DNA from: Phycisphaerae bacterium
Lineage (GTDB): Bacteria; Planctomycetota; Phycisphaerae; Phycisphaerales; SM1A02
DNA length: 64,000 nt
Assembly (NCBI GenBank): GCA_002711415.1
Contig: PARI01000011.1
Location: 55,218-119,217, forward strand
Direction: 5' to 3'
The notes under the pieces: model-generated
Seen by the model: the letters and a program-made list of their open reading frames with translations, nothing else
Told to the model about the DNA's origin: nothing
Database searches by the model: none
In this document: piece by piece, positions 54,829 to 60,988 of the stretch
How positions within the stretch are numbered: the stretch's first letter is position 1
Layout: each line of letters begins with the position of its first letter
Made by a program: the position numbers and the translations under genes

Positions 54829-55707
54829 TCAGCCCGATTCGAGACCGAGAATGCTGGCGCACGTGTCGAAACGATAGTTCTCCAGCATCATCTCGAACTT
54901 GCCCTGCGTCGTGGAAAGGCCGACGTATGATTTGAAGCGCCGATGAGGTGGCATGCTCGGCCTCGGCTGATCCGGTGCGAAATCCCTCGGGTGCAGGTAG
55001 ACGACCACCGGCAGGTTCCGTGCATTGGTTCTGGCGAACCCCCACCTGATGAACCACTTCGGGAACAACCTGAGGTATCCACCTCCGGAGAAGGCGACCC
55101 TGAACGGGCCGATGGGCAGGACGGTCATCGGCAGTTCGGGCATCGGCCTGCCCGACGGCGTGCCGGTGAACTCGTGTGGACCGTCGCTGCACGGATATCC
55201 ACCATGTCCCCGCCGCGCGGGAAAGAGGCTCGCGTCGTACTCGAGACCGAGCTCGTGCATGATGTCGAACGCCCACTCGGTACCGGGAACCAGCGAAAAG
55301 GTCGGTGCCCTGAACCCGATGACGCGCTGTCCGGACTGCTGCTCAATCAGGTCCTTGTTCCTGGAGATGTCCTCCCTGAACTGCTCGGGGGTGAGCTGAT
55401 CGACCCGGCGATGCCACCAGGAATGGAGTGCAAGTTCATGGCCCGCGTCGGCGATCTCCCTCGCCAGTTCCGGGTGCTGCTGGGCCGTCCAGCCGAGCAT
55501 GAAAAAGGTGCCTCGCACCTGGTGTTGCTGGAGCGTCTGGAGGATTCCACGGGTCCGCTCCAGGGCGATCGATGGGAACTCGGACCACTGTTCAGGATCC
55601 TCGGTTGCCCGGATCCCGACGATGTGGAACCAGTCCTCGATGTCGAAGGACATCGCGTTGATGATCTGGTTGTCGTCCTGCCTGGTTGTCACGAGCCTTC
55701 CTGTCAC
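54829..55707 (-). CDS. Polysaccharide deacetylase, DUF3473 (PEP-CTERM/exosortase-locus) type
   Basis: A 292-aa protein matching the polysaccharide deacetylases of exosortase loci: S-F-D-I-E-D-W-F-H at the N-terminus (metal Asp pair), G-T-F-F-M-L-G-W, G-H-E-L-A-L-H-S-W-W-H, G-F-R-A-P-T-F-S, S-G-G-G-Y-L-R and Y-L-H-P-R-D. It should remove N- or O-acetyl groups from an exopolysaccharide or peptidoglycan. The GTG start overlaps the VOC stop as GTGA. Last gene of the 54.8-60.7 kb cluster. Confidence 0.85.
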   Translation of the reverse strand: MTGRLVTTRQDDNQIINAMSFDIEDWFHIVGIRATEDPEQWSEFPSIALERTRGILQTLQQHQVRGTFFMLGWTAQQHPELAREIADAGHELALHSWWHRRVDQLTPEQFREDISRNKDLIEQQSGQRVIGFRAPTFSLVPGTEWAFDIMHELGLEYDASLFPARRGHGGYPCSDGPHEFTGTPSGRPMPELPMTVLPIGPFRVAFSGGGYLRLFPKWFIRWGFARTNARNLPVVVYLHPRDFAPDQPRPSMPPHRRFKSYVGLSTTQGKFEMMLENYRFDTCASILGLESG

Positions 55708-56120
55708 CGGTCCATGGGAGCCGATCGCTCCACGAACTCGGTCAATTGCCTTGTGGGCGTGAGAACCCAGGCGATGCGCCGTCCGTCGTATGCGACCGCC
55801 GGAACCGGGTTGCTCACGATGATCGATCCCTTGCCCCGGAACTCCTCGAGGGTCTTCTCGATGTCCTCGACCTCGTAGCAGACATGGTACGCAGAGACCC
55901 CCTTCGCGAGTGTTCTCGCGACGTGCGAGTCGTCTCCCAGGGGGGCGATCAGTTCGAGAACGACGTCCCCTTCCTGACCGCTGCCGATGAATGCGACCCG
56001 TGCCTGCTGGGTCGGGTCGTCATACGGTCCTCGAAGGAGCTTGTATCCGAACAGGTCGGCATAGGTCTCAAGGGCCTTCTCGATGTCAGCGACTGCAACG
56101 CCAAGGTGATCAATCAGCAT
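55704..56120 (-). CDS. VOC-superfamily protein (methylmalonyl-CoA epimerase-like)
   Basis: A 138-aa protein with two beta-alpha-beta-beta-beta units: I-D-H-L-G-V-A-V-A-D-I-E at the start, a middle E-L-I-A-P-L, Y-H-V-C-Y-E-V and a final E, the metal-binding H/E set of VOC proteins. Epimerase, glyoxalase or binding roles cannot be separated. ATG 56120 is preferred because AGG stands 9 nt upstream; ATG 56129 is the alternative. It overlaps the glycosyltransferase stop. Confidence 0.8.
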   Translation of the reverse strand: MLIDHLGVAVADIEKALETYADLFGYKLLRGPYDDPTQQARVAFIGSGQEGDVVLELIAPLGDDSHVARTLAKGVSAYHVCYEVEDIEKTLEEFRGKGSIIVSNPVPAVAYDGRRIAWVLTPTRQLTEFVERSAPMDR

Positions 56121-57390
56121 GGTCTTCATCCTGCCTGGTGACGGCTGCTTCGTCACCGTTGACGTGCATCATATCGGAGAGGGTCCGGCAGACCATTCCG
56201 AACAGTCGCTCCTTCGAGAAGCGATGCTCGAGGACCTGGTGGGCCCGTTCTCCCATGGCCGCCAGGTCGGCGGGATCCATGTCGACGATCGATCTGACCA
56301 GTCGAACCAGGCCGTCGACGTCACCGTTGTCGACACGCCAGCCGATGTCCTCGGCCTCGACCAGGTCGGAGACGTGTGATTCTTCCGGTCCGACCATGAG
56401 GATTGGCCTTCGAACACCCATGGCACCGTAGATCTTGCATGGATGGATCACCCCGACAACCTCGGGCAGGATCGTGACGGCATGCACGTCGGCAGCCGAC
56501 AACGAATGGCGGAGTTCCGACAGCGGCTGGTAGGGCAGCGAGATGATGTTGTCGGGAGCATGATCCCTGATCGCATCCTCGACCTCCTGCTTGGCGATCC
56601 CACCGCCGATGAACATGTACACGATCCGGGGATCGGTCGTCGCCAGCGCCGCCTTGACCAGGGTCGTCACGGGCGTGGTGAGTCCGTGATTGCCCGAGTA
56701 CATGATCACGAACTTGTCCTGCAGACCGTGTTCCTTCCTGAACGGGTTGTCCTGGTGAGGTACGGGGGCCTCGAACTTGTCCATGGGACCGGGAGCGATC
56801 ACGTGCATTCGATCGCCGATGTCCAGCTTCGCGTTCAGCCTGTCGGCCATGAAGCGATCCATCGCGATGGTCGCTGCACACCGCCGGAGTGTCATGCGGT
56901 TCAACCGGTTGAAGAACCTGGCGACCAGCGAGCGTTCACTCATGGTGCCCATGGCGATCATCTGGTCGGGATTCAGGTCCATCGCCCAGTAGGTGAACGG
57001 CTTTCTCCGGAACAGACGGAGGAAGATGGCGGCCATCGAGGCGAATGGCGGAGCCGTCGAGACGAGGACGCCATCAAGCCCTCGCAGGAAGAGTCCTCGA
57101 ATCGAAGCCTGCTTGACGAACAGGAGTCCCGCGAGCATTCGGATCAGCAGGGATCCCTTCCCGAACGAACTCCAAGGAAGCCGGACGACCTCGACACCAT
57201 TGATCGTCTCCCGTGAGGGGTACCGGGTCCGACCCGTTTCGTAGTCCCTGTTGGACGTGTAGACGATGACGCGGAAACCGCGTGACACCATCATCGCCGC
57301 GGCCTCGGAGATCAGTTGACCCACCGCAGGCGTGTCGGGCAGGTACACCTGGGTGATGATCAGCAACGTCCTTGGCTTGCTCTGTGGCAT
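56110..57390 (-). CDS. Group 4 (GT4-type) glycosyltransferase
   Basis: A 426-aa GT-B enzyme: N-terminal T-Q-V-Y-L-P-D-T-P, then Y-S-G-N-H-G-L early in the C-terminal domain, and H-P-C-K-I-Y-G-A-M-G-V-R-R-P-I in the nucleotide-sugar-binding half. It resembles WbuB-type enzymes that build surface polysaccharides. The sugar and linkage cannot be read. Cytoplasmic face of the inner membrane is likely. Part of the six-gene cluster. Confidence 0.87.
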   Translation of the reverse strand: MPQSKPRTLLIITQVYLPDTPAVGQLISEAAAMMVSRGFRVIVYTSNRDYETGRTRYPSRETINGVEVVRLPWSSFGKGSLLIRMLAGLLFVKQASIRGLFLRGLDGVLVSTAPPFASMAAIFLRLFRRKPFTYWAMDLNPDQMIAMGTMSERSLVARFFNRLNRMTLRRCAATIAMDRFMADRLNAKLDIGDRMHVIAPGPMDKFEAPVPHQDNPFRKEHGLQDKFVIMYSGNHGLTTPVTTLVKAALATTDPRIVYMFIGGGIAKQEVEDAIRDHAPDNIISLPYQPLSELRHSLSAADVHAVTILPEVVGVIHPCKIYGAMGVRRPILMVGPEESHVSDLVEAEDIGWRVDNGDVDGLVRLVRSIVDMDPADLAAMGERAHQVLEHRFSKERLFGMVCRTLSDMMHVNGDEAAVTRQDEDHAD

Positions 57391-57404
57391 CTTGGTCTGA
57401 TCCG

Positions 57405-58493
57405 TCAGAAGGCGTCGTGATCGGAGAAGCAGAACGTCCAGTGATCGAGATCACCCTCCCATGATTCCTCGGGAACGAGCGGGCCCGGGTAGACCAGGAG
57501 ATGGTACTGCTCAGGGGAACGCATGAATCGAGCGGAACGCACGATCCCGGGTACGGGCTCCTGCATTCCACCCATTGAGAGGATCGCATCGGCACCATCG
57601 CGCACCATCGAATCCTGCATCGTGGACAACAGCGCTGCGCCGACCTGGCCGTCCTCCGGTCCGACCAGGAGATCGATGACGATTCCGAACCGGATCCCGT
57701 GTCTGTCACCCACCCTGTGGATCGAGGCGGCGATCACTTGTCCATCACGTGATGCGACATGGATGCGGTAGGGCGCATGATCGATGGCCGTCCTGAATCG
57801 CTTTTGAAAGTACTCCACCGACCAGTCCATGGCCACGGTGCCGCGGGCGCGGTCCTGCATCATGGCCACGATCTGCTCGATCCTTGAGTCACCCGTGTCG
57901 ATCCGCTCGATCGTCACACCACCGGGCGCACGACTTCTCCCGATCGAAAGCCATGCCCGCCATCCGAGGTCGGGCACCGAGGCGGCCGCCTCGATGAACT
58001 TCGCCGGGAACTTGTGCCTGGCCAGCATCCGGAACGGCCTCAGGGGGCGGAAATCGACGGGAATGGTCCCCATGAGGCGGTATCCGATCTTCTGGTGACT
58101 CTCGGCGACGACGGTCTGCCGCGTCGCCGTGTATATCATGTCGATCCCGGAGCTGCGCATCGCGCGGTTCATCGCGAAGACGAGCTGCGTGTAGACCATC
58201 AGCTTCCGGTACTTCGGATCAATGTAGAGATGGGACCAGAATCCTGATCGCCGCCGAATCTTTTCGCCATGATCGAAAGTGACGTCTCTCATGTAGAGAG
58301 CTGTCATGCCGGCCGGCTGGTCGTCGACATGGGCGATCCATGCAAGGAAGTGTTCCGGATCGCAGTGGAAGAGATAGTCCTCGACATCCGTGGTTTCGTA
58401 GGGCACCTCGTCCCGATCACGGAGGAGCTGCGCCAGGACGGGGAGATCATCCGGTGTCGCTTCCTTGATCGTGATTTTCGGCTTGTGGTCCAA
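57405..58493 (-). CDS. GNAT-like acetyltransferase, two domains
   Basis: A protein of about 362 aa with two GNAT-type halves; the first has I-K-E-A-T-P-D-D-L-P-V-L-A and F-W-S-H-L-Y-I-D-P-K-Y-R-K near the acetyl-CoA loop. The start is uncertain: no ATG lies near the expected N-terminus. TTG 58493 gives D-H-K-P-K-I-T-I-K-E; CTG 58508 would overlap the ACP stop. It may acylate the sugar made by the neighbouring glycosyltransferase, which is inference. Confidence 0.72.
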   Translation of the reverse strand: MDHKPKITIKEATPDDLPVLAQLLRDRDEVPYETTDVEDYLFHCDPEHFLAWIAHVDDQPAGMTALYMRDVTFDHGEKIRRRSGFWSHLYIDPKYRKLMVYTQLVFAMNRAMRSSGIDMIYTATRQTVVAESHQKIGYRLMGTIPVDFRPLRPFRMLARHKFPAKFIEAAASVPDLGWRAWLSIGRSRAPGGVTIERIDTGDSRIEQIVAMMQDRARGTVAMDWSVEYFQKRFRTAIDHAPYRIHVASRDGQVIAASIHRVGDRHGIRFGIVIDLLVGPEDGQVGAALLSTMQDSMVRDGADAILSMGGMQEPVPGIVRSARFMRSPEQYHLLVYPGPLVPEESWEGDLDHWTFCFSDHDAF

Positions 58494-58504
58494 TTCGAGG
58501 ATGC

Positions 58505-58744
58505 TCAGGAACCGAGTGAATCGATCTTTGCGACGATCGCATCGACGGTGACCAGTTCGGGGATGTCGTCGGGGTCGAAGGAGACACCGAACCTCGACTC
58601 GAGAGACATGACCAGGTTCAGGTGGGACATGGACTCCCATGCCTCGACGGTCTCGGGGGATGTCTCCATGGTGACATCGTCCAGATCGATCCCGAAGGTG
58701 TCTGCCACGACCTGCCTGACGGTGTCAACGGTCTGCTCAGCCAT
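58505..58744 (-). CDS. Acyl carrier protein
   Basis: A 79-aa carrier protein with four predicted helices. The phosphopantetheine serine is Ser38 in A-W-E-S-M-S-H-L-N-L, the variant of D-S-L seen in non-fatty-acid ACPs of FkbH and exopolysaccharide clusters. It overlaps the FkbH gene end by 8 bases (its ATG at 58744 lies inside), so the two are translationally coupled. A holo-ACP synthase is not in the window. Confidence 0.92.
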   Translation of the reverse strand: MAEQTVDTVRQVVADTFGIDLDDVTMETSPETVEAWESMSHLNLVMSLESRFGVSFDPDDIPELVTVDAIVAKIDSLGS

Positions 58745-60701
58745 GAAGGAATTCCCCTTTGCTCGTGTTTCTCGTGATCCAGTCCGGTGGATCGATCGAG
58801 GTGGTGGTCATGTCCAGTTCCCAACGAACCTCTTCGGAGGATTCGGAAATCTTCTTGAATCCATGGGATTCATAGATCGCCTGGGCAGGCGGGTTCTTCT
58901 TGGTCGGCATGAAGCTGCCCGCCAGCTTCGTCGCTCCAGCGGCACGCGCATGCTCGACCACGGTCGCCAGCATGGCGGTCTCCACGGTCCTGCCGATCAC
59001 GCGGCAGCTCATGAGGAAGGTGTCGAACTCCCAGGTGTCCCCCCGGTCGAGGAGGATCATCACCCCGACGACACCGTTGTCGCCGAAGCGATCCTTGACG
59101 TTGATCCAGTAGACGTGTGAATCATCAGCCGATGCGAAATCCTGGATCTGCTGCTCGCTGTAGCGACGGGTGGTCATGTTCAACTGGTTCGTCTTCTGGG
59201 TGAGCTGAGCGACCCTGGCGAGCCTGGCATCATCGACCAGGCCGATGTCAGCGACCATCTCCAGTGAACGGTAGTAGTCCTCCATGGAGGAACTCGATGT
59301 CTGGAGGTCCTTCCGCTGCCGCTGCTCGGCATACATCTGGCCACGTCGGCGATCGTCATCGGACAGCGAGACCCTCGAGAACATCGGGTTCTCCCTGACC
59401 GCCCTGGCGTGACCGATGGGGTCGGACGGATCCACGTCGATGACGGTGACTTCCGGAAGCATCTCCCGGACCATCTCTCGCTCGACCGGGTTGTCATCGA
59501 TGAACGCGAGCGAATCGATCCCGATGTTCAGCTCCTCCGCGATTTCACGGAGGTTCTGGACCTTGTCCTGCCAGTTGATGCGCATCGAGGCGAAATGGGG
59601 TTCCTTCAGAATCATTCCATCGTGATCCCGGATGACCTCCATTGCATCATCCATGTTGTTCTTGCTGCAGATCGCGATGATCACACCCTGCTGGTACAGG
59701 TCCAGAACAGCTCGCTGGAACTGCTGGTAGGCGGCCCCCGGGTACTCCACGCCGAGATCGATTCCGTTGATCCCGTCCTCCCCGATGATCCCGCCCCACA
59801 TCGTGTTGTCCAGATCGCACACGAGGCACTTGCTCGAACGACCGGCGATGGCGACGAGGAACCGAAGCCACTCGCCGGCAAGCGGCACGAGCGAGTCCGC
59901 GGCCAGCGGCATCCGCATGGTCAGCCACTTCCTGTGATCATGCCATCGACTCCGTCCATGGCGGGCGACAAGAGAGTCGTAATCGAGAACGTGGACACCC
60001 TGGTACTCCGAGGCGATCTCGACCAGAGACCTGTTCAGGTCACGGATGGCCGCCTGCTGTCCATGTGGATCCTGTCCATCCATCGGCGAGACGACGGGGA
60101 ATTCCGGGCACTCGAGATTGTGGATGATGACATGGGCCTGTGTCCGGGTTCGGACCATGTCGAGCCATTGCCTGAATGATCCGACGGCATCCCGCACGAT
60201 CTCGGCGATCTGTTCAGCGGTCTTGTCGGCGAAGTCGAGGTAGATCCCGGGAACCAGATCGCGCGACTGGATCGCCAGCACGATGACATCCGGTTCACTC
60301 GAGTAGAGCCTGCTGTCGGCGTCGATGATCTCCTGGACATGGGCATTGAACTCCCCCACCATCGATTCCGCCCGGATGCCATGGCAGGCGGCCGCCGCCT
60401 CGAGCGGACCAAGGGCCGGTTCGATCGTGAAGGATCGCAGGAAGAAGATCTTCATGCTGGACGCCGACGGGTCCTCCGGAAGCTTCTTGAGCATCGCATT
60501 GACCGTGGTGGCGGTTGCAGCGGTGGGATCCTGCTCCCACATGCGGCGGACAAGCCGTCGAGCCAGCGCATGATCGCCGGACGAGATCGCATCCTCTATA
60601 TCAGCTCTGGTATTGGTTGAATCGGCCACGGTCAGTCTCACCCAGTCCTGATAGGTCCCCTGCCGGTGCCTGCGGATCAGGCCCGCCCGGTCGACGTCCA
60701 T
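58737..60701 (-). CDS. FkbH-like HAD-IIIC protein
   Basis: A 654-aa protein: an N-terminal SGNH-like domain, a HAD domain at about residue 295 with C-L-V-C-D-L-D-N-T-M-W-G-G (D-x-D-x-T nucleophile), then a GNAT-like C-terminal domain with R-V-I-G-R-T-V-E. Characterised FkbH proteins take 1,3-bisphosphoglycerate and load a glyceryl group onto a partner ACP. ATG 60701 is used; a TTG further upstream is unlikely. No Shine-Dalgarno is obvious. First gene of the six-gene minus-strand cluster. Confidence 0.88.
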   Translation of the reverse strand: MDVDRAGLIRRHRQGTYQDWVRLTVADSTNTRADIEDAISSGDHALARRLVRRMWEQDPTAATATTVNAMLKKLPEDPSASSMKIFFLRSFTIEPALGPLEAAAACHGIRAESMVGEFNAHVQEIIDADSRLYSSEPDVIVLAIQSRDLVPGIYLDFADKTAEQIAEIVRDAVGSFRQWLDMVRTRTQAHVIIHNLECPEFPVVSPMDGQDPHGQQAAIRDLNRSLVEIASEYQGVHVLDYDSLVARHGRSRWHDHRKWLTMRMPLAADSLVPLAGEWLRFLVAIAGRSSKCLVCDLDNTMWGGIIGEDGINGIDLGVEYPGAAYQQFQRAVLDLYQQGVIIAICSKNNMDDAMEVIRDHDGMILKEPHFASMRINWQDKVQNLREIAEELNIGIDSLAFIDDNPVEREMVREMLPEVTVIDVDPSDPIGHARAVRENPMFSRVSLSDDDRRRGQMYAEQRQRKDLQTSSSSMEDYYRSLEMVADIGLVDDARLARVAQLTQKTNQLNMTTRRYSEQQIQDFASADDSHVYWINVKDRFGDNGVVGVMILLDRGDTWEFDTFLMSCRVIGRTVETAMLATVVEHARAAGATKLAGSFMPTKKNPPAQAIYESHGFKKISESSEEVRWELDMTTTSIDPPDWITRNTSKGEFLHG

Positions 60702-60988
60702 TGGGAGTGTATCGACGCCCCGGTCCGTACTCAATCATCCAGCATCCATCCGATCAGCAGGAATCCTCGACCCTCCTTGTACATGCTCCAGGGAGAACCG
60801 GTTCCCTCATGTGACCACCGGATCGAGTTTTCCATCCGCGAGAGCCCGTCACGGGGAGCCTGCGGCGACCCAGGGGATCAAGCCCCCTGTTATCACCCCC
60901 CCGGAACAGGGAATCGAACCGGTCACTGGCGGTGGAATCTACAATCCCATGCGGAGGCATGACCCACCAATAAACACGAGGTGCAGAC
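60702..60988. other. Divergent promoter region between the FkbH cluster and the lipoprotein
   Basis: A 287-base gap with genes transcribed away on both sides, so it should hold the promoters of both. It contains a hairpin CCCTGTT...AACAGGG near 60895-60920 but I see no confident -35/-10 pair. Confidence 0.45.

Follow-up and report, generated by a model that had tools for sequence, protein, structure and literature searches.

Introduction

To what an FkbH-type protein and its acyl carrier protein (ACP) pass their acyl group, when the genes beside them are those of glycan enzymes, is the question raised by a six-gene cluster of a Phycisphaerae bacterium. The cluster lies in a 64,000-nucleotide stretch of contig PARI01000011.1 (the window), where minus-strand open reading frames (ORFs) run from 60701 to 54829 in the order FkbH, ACP, tandem-GNAT acyltransferase, GT4 glycosyltransferase, VOC protein and DUF3473 deacetylase. 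The answer we lean towards is a cassette that acts in the cytoplasm on a glycan precursor and exchanges one N-acyl group for another; in its FkbH version it most likely installs an N-glyceroyl group.

A gene set kept together in relatives

Relatives of the FkbH protein occur in other genomes of the Phycisphaerales, in one Pirellulales metagenome-assembled genome (MAG) and in one Acidobacteriota MAG, and around the closest ones lie the same partner genes. Few genomes carry the GNAT gene: a GNAT profile search found it in 8 of 251 for the order and in 3 of 392 for the phylum. Ten close tandem-GNAT loci are spread across five families of Planctomycetota. Each of the ten has a GT4 gene together with an ACP or ACP-like one, eight hold FkbH, and the deacetylase lies within the cassette in eight of the nine that are assessable. 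This conservation rules out a chance adjacency of the six genes, the set recurring in the Pirellulales MAG, in a Phycisphaerae family further removed and, within Phycisphaerales, in genera from three families.

In most loci FkbH, ACP and GNAT adjoin one another or almost do, and the GT (with or without VOC) and the deacetylase shift position around this trio. The Pirellulales locus (L017) is one run of GT-VOC-FkbH-ACP-GNAT-deacetylase, genomes G037 and G046 have GT-FkbH-ACP-GNAT-deacetylase, and in G005 FkbH is followed by a 3.5-kb insert and then ACP-GNAT-GT-VOC. A stand-alone ACP accompanies FkbH in all eight FkbH cassette loci, directly adjacent in all except G005, where a large predicted gene (L020:8225-11778, subtilase-like by eye) separates the two; immediately before the G005 ACP gene the 3' end of FkbH is duplicated over 199 bases at 75% identity, a scar of an earlier FkbH/ACP adjacency. 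An earlier note on the window, made from its sequence, had taken the six genes for one unit and had proposed a neighbourhood search across Planctomycetota. As a recurring set the unit holds, since FkbH, ACP and deacetylase partners do come back across the phylum, but it is not fixed: some partners stand apart in relatives, VOC is often not found, the G005 deacetylase is elsewhere and two genomes have other genes in place of FkbH.

Exchange of the acyl-supply genes

Those two replacements are the most telling part of the comparison. Genome G014, in which FkbH has no match genome-wide at E<=1e-20, has the order GT, ACP-like, FabG-like short-chain dehydrogenase/reductase (SDR), AMP-ligase, GNAT, deacetylase, flippase, and G880 has ACP-like, SDR, ligase, GT4 and GNAT before its contig ends, the ACP-like, SDR and ligase proteins of the two being 55%, 71% and 62% identical. 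No AMP-ligase was recognised in the FkbH loci, whose ORFs were scanned in part. The expectation on partner genes had been fixed before a class-wide GNAT search, and five new loci were then judged against it. G880 fitted (its deacetylase is not assessable at the contig end), as did G443, a more distant GNAT in the order GNAT-SDR-ligase-ACP with a Pfam-recognised ACP and the deacetylase alongside. Among three distant GNAT relatives, G255 combines a ligase with a ketoacyl synthase, no deacetylase being seen, G803 has the deacetylase with no ACP seen, and in G718 neither ACP nor deacetylase was seen.

That the acyl-supply genes have been exchanged while the GNAT is kept is plain from the gene content. 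Because GNAT and deacetylase are retained while the source of acyl-ACP changes, the GNAT is read as an acyl-ACP-using transferase, to which FkbH-ACP would be one of several supplies. The simplest reading would have an acyl-ACP supply unit feed one transferase, with the deacetylase freeing the amine.

The acyl donor

Families were assigned with curated Pfam and NCBIfam models, scores being compared with the model cut-offs (Table 1), and the six family labels given in the earlier note agree with them. Also reproduced were its coordinates, its single strand and its tight packing with overlaps, the intergenic distances from FkbH to deacetylase being −8, +11, +14, −11 and −4 bases.

Table 1. Genes of the cassette in the window, in the order of transcription
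Gene product	Position	Strand	Models	Remarks
FkbH-type protein	58737..60701	-	TIGR01686, PF21211	FkbH_N/SGNH + HAD-IIIC + GNAT-like C-terminal part; alternative upstream TTG start possible at 60734
Acyl carrier protein	58505..58744	-	PF00550	8-base overlap with FkbH
Tandem-GNAT acyltransferase	57405..58493	-	PF00583 + PF13480	two Pfam GNAT domains; TTG start at 58493
GT4 glycosyltransferase	56110..57390	-	PF13579/PF13439	WcaI-like; PRK10307 match of 101.9 bits, under model cut-off
VOC protein	55704..56120	-	PF13669	methylmalonyl-CoA-epimerase/GloA-like
DUF3473 polysaccharide deacetylase	54829..55707	-	PF11959, PF01522	without signal peptide

FkbH scores 316 bits against a TIGR01686 cut-off of 146.65, and its motifs DLDNT, CSKNN, DDN and SCRVIGRT are invariant in six relatives. 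The ACP scores 26.4 against the PF00550 cut-off of 20.8 and has Ser38 in E-S-M-S-H-L-N-L, of which Ser, H and LN are invariant in the six aligned. At this phosphopantetheine site the window ACP reads Glu-Ser, as against Asp-Ser in all five aligned relatives. FkbH is thus a predicted glyceryl transferase/phosphatase, which would take glyceryl from 1,3-bisphosphoglycerate and load it onto the dedicated ACP as a thioester; the glyceryl identity of the acyl group is suggested by analogy with FkbH chemistry in known pathways.

The VOC protein matches PF13669 (Glyoxalase_4) at 80.8 against 27, and falls under the equivalog cut-offs for methylmalonyl-CoA epimerase (TIGR03081, 64 against 114.95) and glyoxalase I (GloA, 38.2 against 120). 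Its H, E, H and E positions align with PDB 2qh0 and are invariant in relatives, and we take them to be the 2His-2Glu metal site of the superfamily. It is in the cassettes of the window, G005 and L017 and was not found in the cassette loci of G037, G046, G607, G451 and G534, and so is an optional component. A VOC gene near FkbH and ACP also occurs in the Acidobacteriota MAG (L018), in S. meliloti pSymB, and in Rhodobacteraceae SC52 and Paroceanicella (two Rhodobacterales plasmids). Given this recurrence in Acidobacteriota and Alphaproteobacteria the VOC protein may epimerise glyceryl-ACP, and since methylmalonyl-CoA epimerase and glyoxalase I both act beside a thioester carbonyl, a glyceryl-ACP C2 epimerase is the natural guess for it; the enzyme would invert or equilibrate C2 via an enediolate, the route by which VOC enzymes act on alpha-acidic thioesters. 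The Acidobacteriota locus is counted only for VOC-FkbH-ACP because no homology could be established between its 371-aa protein (L018:10003-11118) and the GNAT. The S. meliloti 1021 row (pSymB, L062:2440-8469: VOC, MBOAT, unknown protein, ACP, FkbH) makes up a second type of FkbH-ACP cassette, one with a membrane acyltransferase.

It is distinctly unlikely that the VOC protein, or enzymes encoded elsewhere, convert glyceryl to another C3 acyl group before transfer. A methylmalonyl-CoA-epimerase/GloA-like protein could catalyse other isomerisations, and methyltransferases lie near FkbH in G534 and Paroceanicella, but the window cassette is without dehydrogenase, dehydratase or methyltransferase, unlike methoxymalonyl and tetronate operons. 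In those pathways the unit enters a polyketide via FabH-like enzymes or dehydrogenases, whereas the window cassette has no FabH-like protein, no Agg4/Agg5 and no dehydrogenase pair with O-methyltransferase.

Proposed transfer to an amine

Acetyl-CoA-using GNATs have a canonical glycine-rich RxxGxG/A loop. In its place the N-domain of the cassette GNAT has RxxMxYxxL in nine of nine aligned members, all of which share the C-terminus DHDAF; the loss of the loop fits a donor other than acetyl-CoA, without proving ACP as the donor. Structure prediction, which the earlier note had called for, gave a low-confidence model that Foldseek matches to tandem GNATs at TM-scores of ~0.3, a result that supports the fold class only.

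The deacetylase scores 109.5 against 29.6 with PF11959 and 87.2 against 23.1 with PF01522; the motifs SFDIEDWFH and HxxxH and the CE4/NodB D, H95 and H99 are invariant, and its hydropathy is low. A hydropathy scan predicted no membrane segments in any of the six proteins, whose action is therefore cytosolic. The label of exosortase-locus-type deacetylase given in the earlier note is nearly right, in that the enzyme is of the subfamily found in XrtA/exosortase exopolysaccharide (EPS) loci; however its TIGR03006 score of 263.2 is under the 276.2 cut-off, and unlike those loci this one has no exosortase, the two of the genome being on contigs C16 and C6 only.

In the exchange as we picture it, the deacetylase would strip acetyl from an N-acetylhexosamine (HexNAc) of a lipid-linked precursor, the tandem GNAT would move glyceryl from the ACP to the freed amine, the GT4 enzyme would extend or build the precursor, and the product would pass to export machinery whose genes lie elsewhere in the genome. 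The linkage would thus be an amide rather than an ester, and the acceptor probably lipid-linked. An alternative is that glyceryl-ACP is made but the GNAT esterifies a sugar hydroxyl, with the deacetylase separately exposing positive charge. For this speak the MBOAT O-acyltransferases that accompany FkbH and ACP in S. meliloti and Rhodobacteraceae SC52, and the placing of the G005 deacetylase in a different locus; yet GNATs are mostly N-acyltransferases and the deacetylase is nearly always part of the cassette, and a mass from Campylobacter jejuni shows replacement of acetyl, not addition of a group, so that we regard the ester as unlikely.

The flagellin of C. jejuni 11168 bears a di-O-methylglyceroyl form of pseudaminic acid (PMC3068675). 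The mass comes from a second report (PMC7099621): by our own arithmetic its published values differ by 390.16383 − 316.12705 = 74.0368, or C3H6O2, which is dimethylglyceroyl replacing acetyl. In the same account (PMC7099621) dimethylglyceroyl sugars are absent from strain 12664, where cj1302 (with the fkbH domain) is a pseudogene only, and from strain 12661, which is without cj1301 ('epimerase'). The authors, in the available parts of the two reports (PMC7099621, PMC3068675), draw no link between the loss of cj1302 or cj1301 and that of the sugar.

Polysaccharide loci and the setting of the window

In relatives the cassette lies mostly within polysaccharide loci, with WecA-like, Wzx and nucleotide-sugar enzyme genes. 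The Pirellulales locus holds a WecA-like transferase, GDP-mannose dehydratase, a WcaF-like acetyltransferase and a MOP flippase, that of G014 a GDP-mannose dehydratase and a flippase, and those of the order-f2 genomes a hexapeptide transferase, a methyltransferase and a nucleotide-sugar epimerase and, by eye, sulfotransferase, GT2 and polymerase-like genes. A GDP-mannose-3,5-epimerase-like gene stands near the GT4 in five relatives (L017:7152-8150, L021:2917-4071, L022:16021-17070, L045:2092-3162 and L047:18156-19145), with no close copy in the window genome.

The window genome (2.8 Mb, 45 contigs) has the cassette between a TraB/GumN-type protein with a radical SAM protein downstream and a divergent lipoprotein-like gene with a C1 peptidase upstream; the initiating transferase and flippase present in relatives' loci are absent around it. 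Two separate exosortase-type EPS loci lie elsewhere in this genome (L034, G000:C16; L035, G000:C6). With unrelated flanks and the exosortase loci on other contigs, the window alone cannot establish an exopolysaccharide product, and the glyceryl- or acyl-decorated exopolysaccharide of the earlier note, while consistent with the relatives' loci, owes its 'exopolysaccharide' to them.

A cassette standing by itself, flippase and polymerase both missing from its surroundings, and an FkbH family best known from antibiotic pathways might instead suggest a small secreted glycolipid or glycoside, a secondary metabolite and not a surface polysaccharide. This we hold to be very improbable, as the cassettes of L017, G014 and the order-f2 genomes are inside loci with WecA-like, Wzx, GDP-mannose dehydratase and other sugar genes, and the window contig is without polyketide or non-ribosomal peptide synthase, as the earlier note had seen for the cluster and as now holds beyond the edges of the window. 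A hidden partner of this kind is ruled out: the genome is free of peptide-synthase condensation domains, and its ketoacyl synthases all lie on contigs other than that of the window. One of the other contigs has a 745-aa single open frame with two ketoacyl-synthase stretches (G000:C16:130505-132268).

Several observations weigh against an N-acyl-exchange cassette for a glycan precursor. The window cassette is flanked by unrelated genes and not within an EPS locus; the G005 cassette is without a deacetylase, the copy (56% identical) lying alone in another EPS locus of that genome (L060:9123-10007) beside wecB/wecC-, GMD- and fcl-looking genes; the AlphaFold model of the GNAT is poor (pLDDT 57.5, from a three-sequence run); the G014 and G880 ACP-like proteins are below the Pfam ACP model or without match; and C. 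jejuni strains 12664 and 12661 differ in other genes too.

Known systems and significance

A literature search on FkbH with exopolysaccharide, O-antigen or polysaccharide, with most subscription journals outside its reach, returned no description of such a pathway, as the earlier note had supposed, although FkbH and ACP as an acyl supply do recur in other glycan loci, including the flagellar glycan locus of Campylobacter. The cj1295...cj1302 region resembles the cassette in having FkbH (cj1302) beside an 'epimerase' (cj1301) in a glycan locus, with a glyceroyl-derived group that by mass replaces acetyl. It differs in that the sugar is an O-methylated nonulosonic acid on protein; no mention is made there of a DUF3473 deacetylase or a tandem GNAT, and only cj1295 among the acyl genes is assigned experimentally. 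Caulobacter holdfast HfsH and HfsK are by description alike in pairing a cytosolic deacetylase with a tandem-GNAT transferase, proposed to acylate the amines exposed by HfsH, but HfsK is FemX-like and binds c-di-GMP, and FkbH-ACP is not mentioned (PMC5362036). The wfp genes of Flavobacterium psychrophilum similarly provide a dedicated ACP from which an amino sugar receives a hydroxyacyl group, there 3,5-dihydroxyhexanoyl on Qui4N of the O-polysaccharide, although ketoacyl-ACP synthases and a reductase build the chain, transfer is of PglD type and there is no deacetylase step (PMC6519341).

Overall the cassette adds to known ACP-dependent sugar acylation, in FkbH form. More tentatively, it may belong to a general route to amino sugars bearing N-glyceroyl or other hydroxyacyl groups, in which a fixed core of deacetylase and tandem GNAT is served by ACP cassettes that can replace one another, either ligase-ketoreductase-ACP or FkbH-ACP, where VOC would be the first glyceryl-ACP epimerase. 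Such a pathway would also point to the genes still missing for dimethylglyceroyl-pseudaminic acid in Campylobacter. The cassette would name a specific donor, glyceryl-ACP, for acyltransferases of holdfast-like and exosortase-like polysaccharide loci, and glyceroyl in place of acetyl predicts a mass shift of +46.005 Da per HexNAc. FkbH chemistry would be carried from antibiotics into surface glycans, the VOC protein would gain a testable role, and a known Campylobacter sugar would be offered a gene-level explanation.

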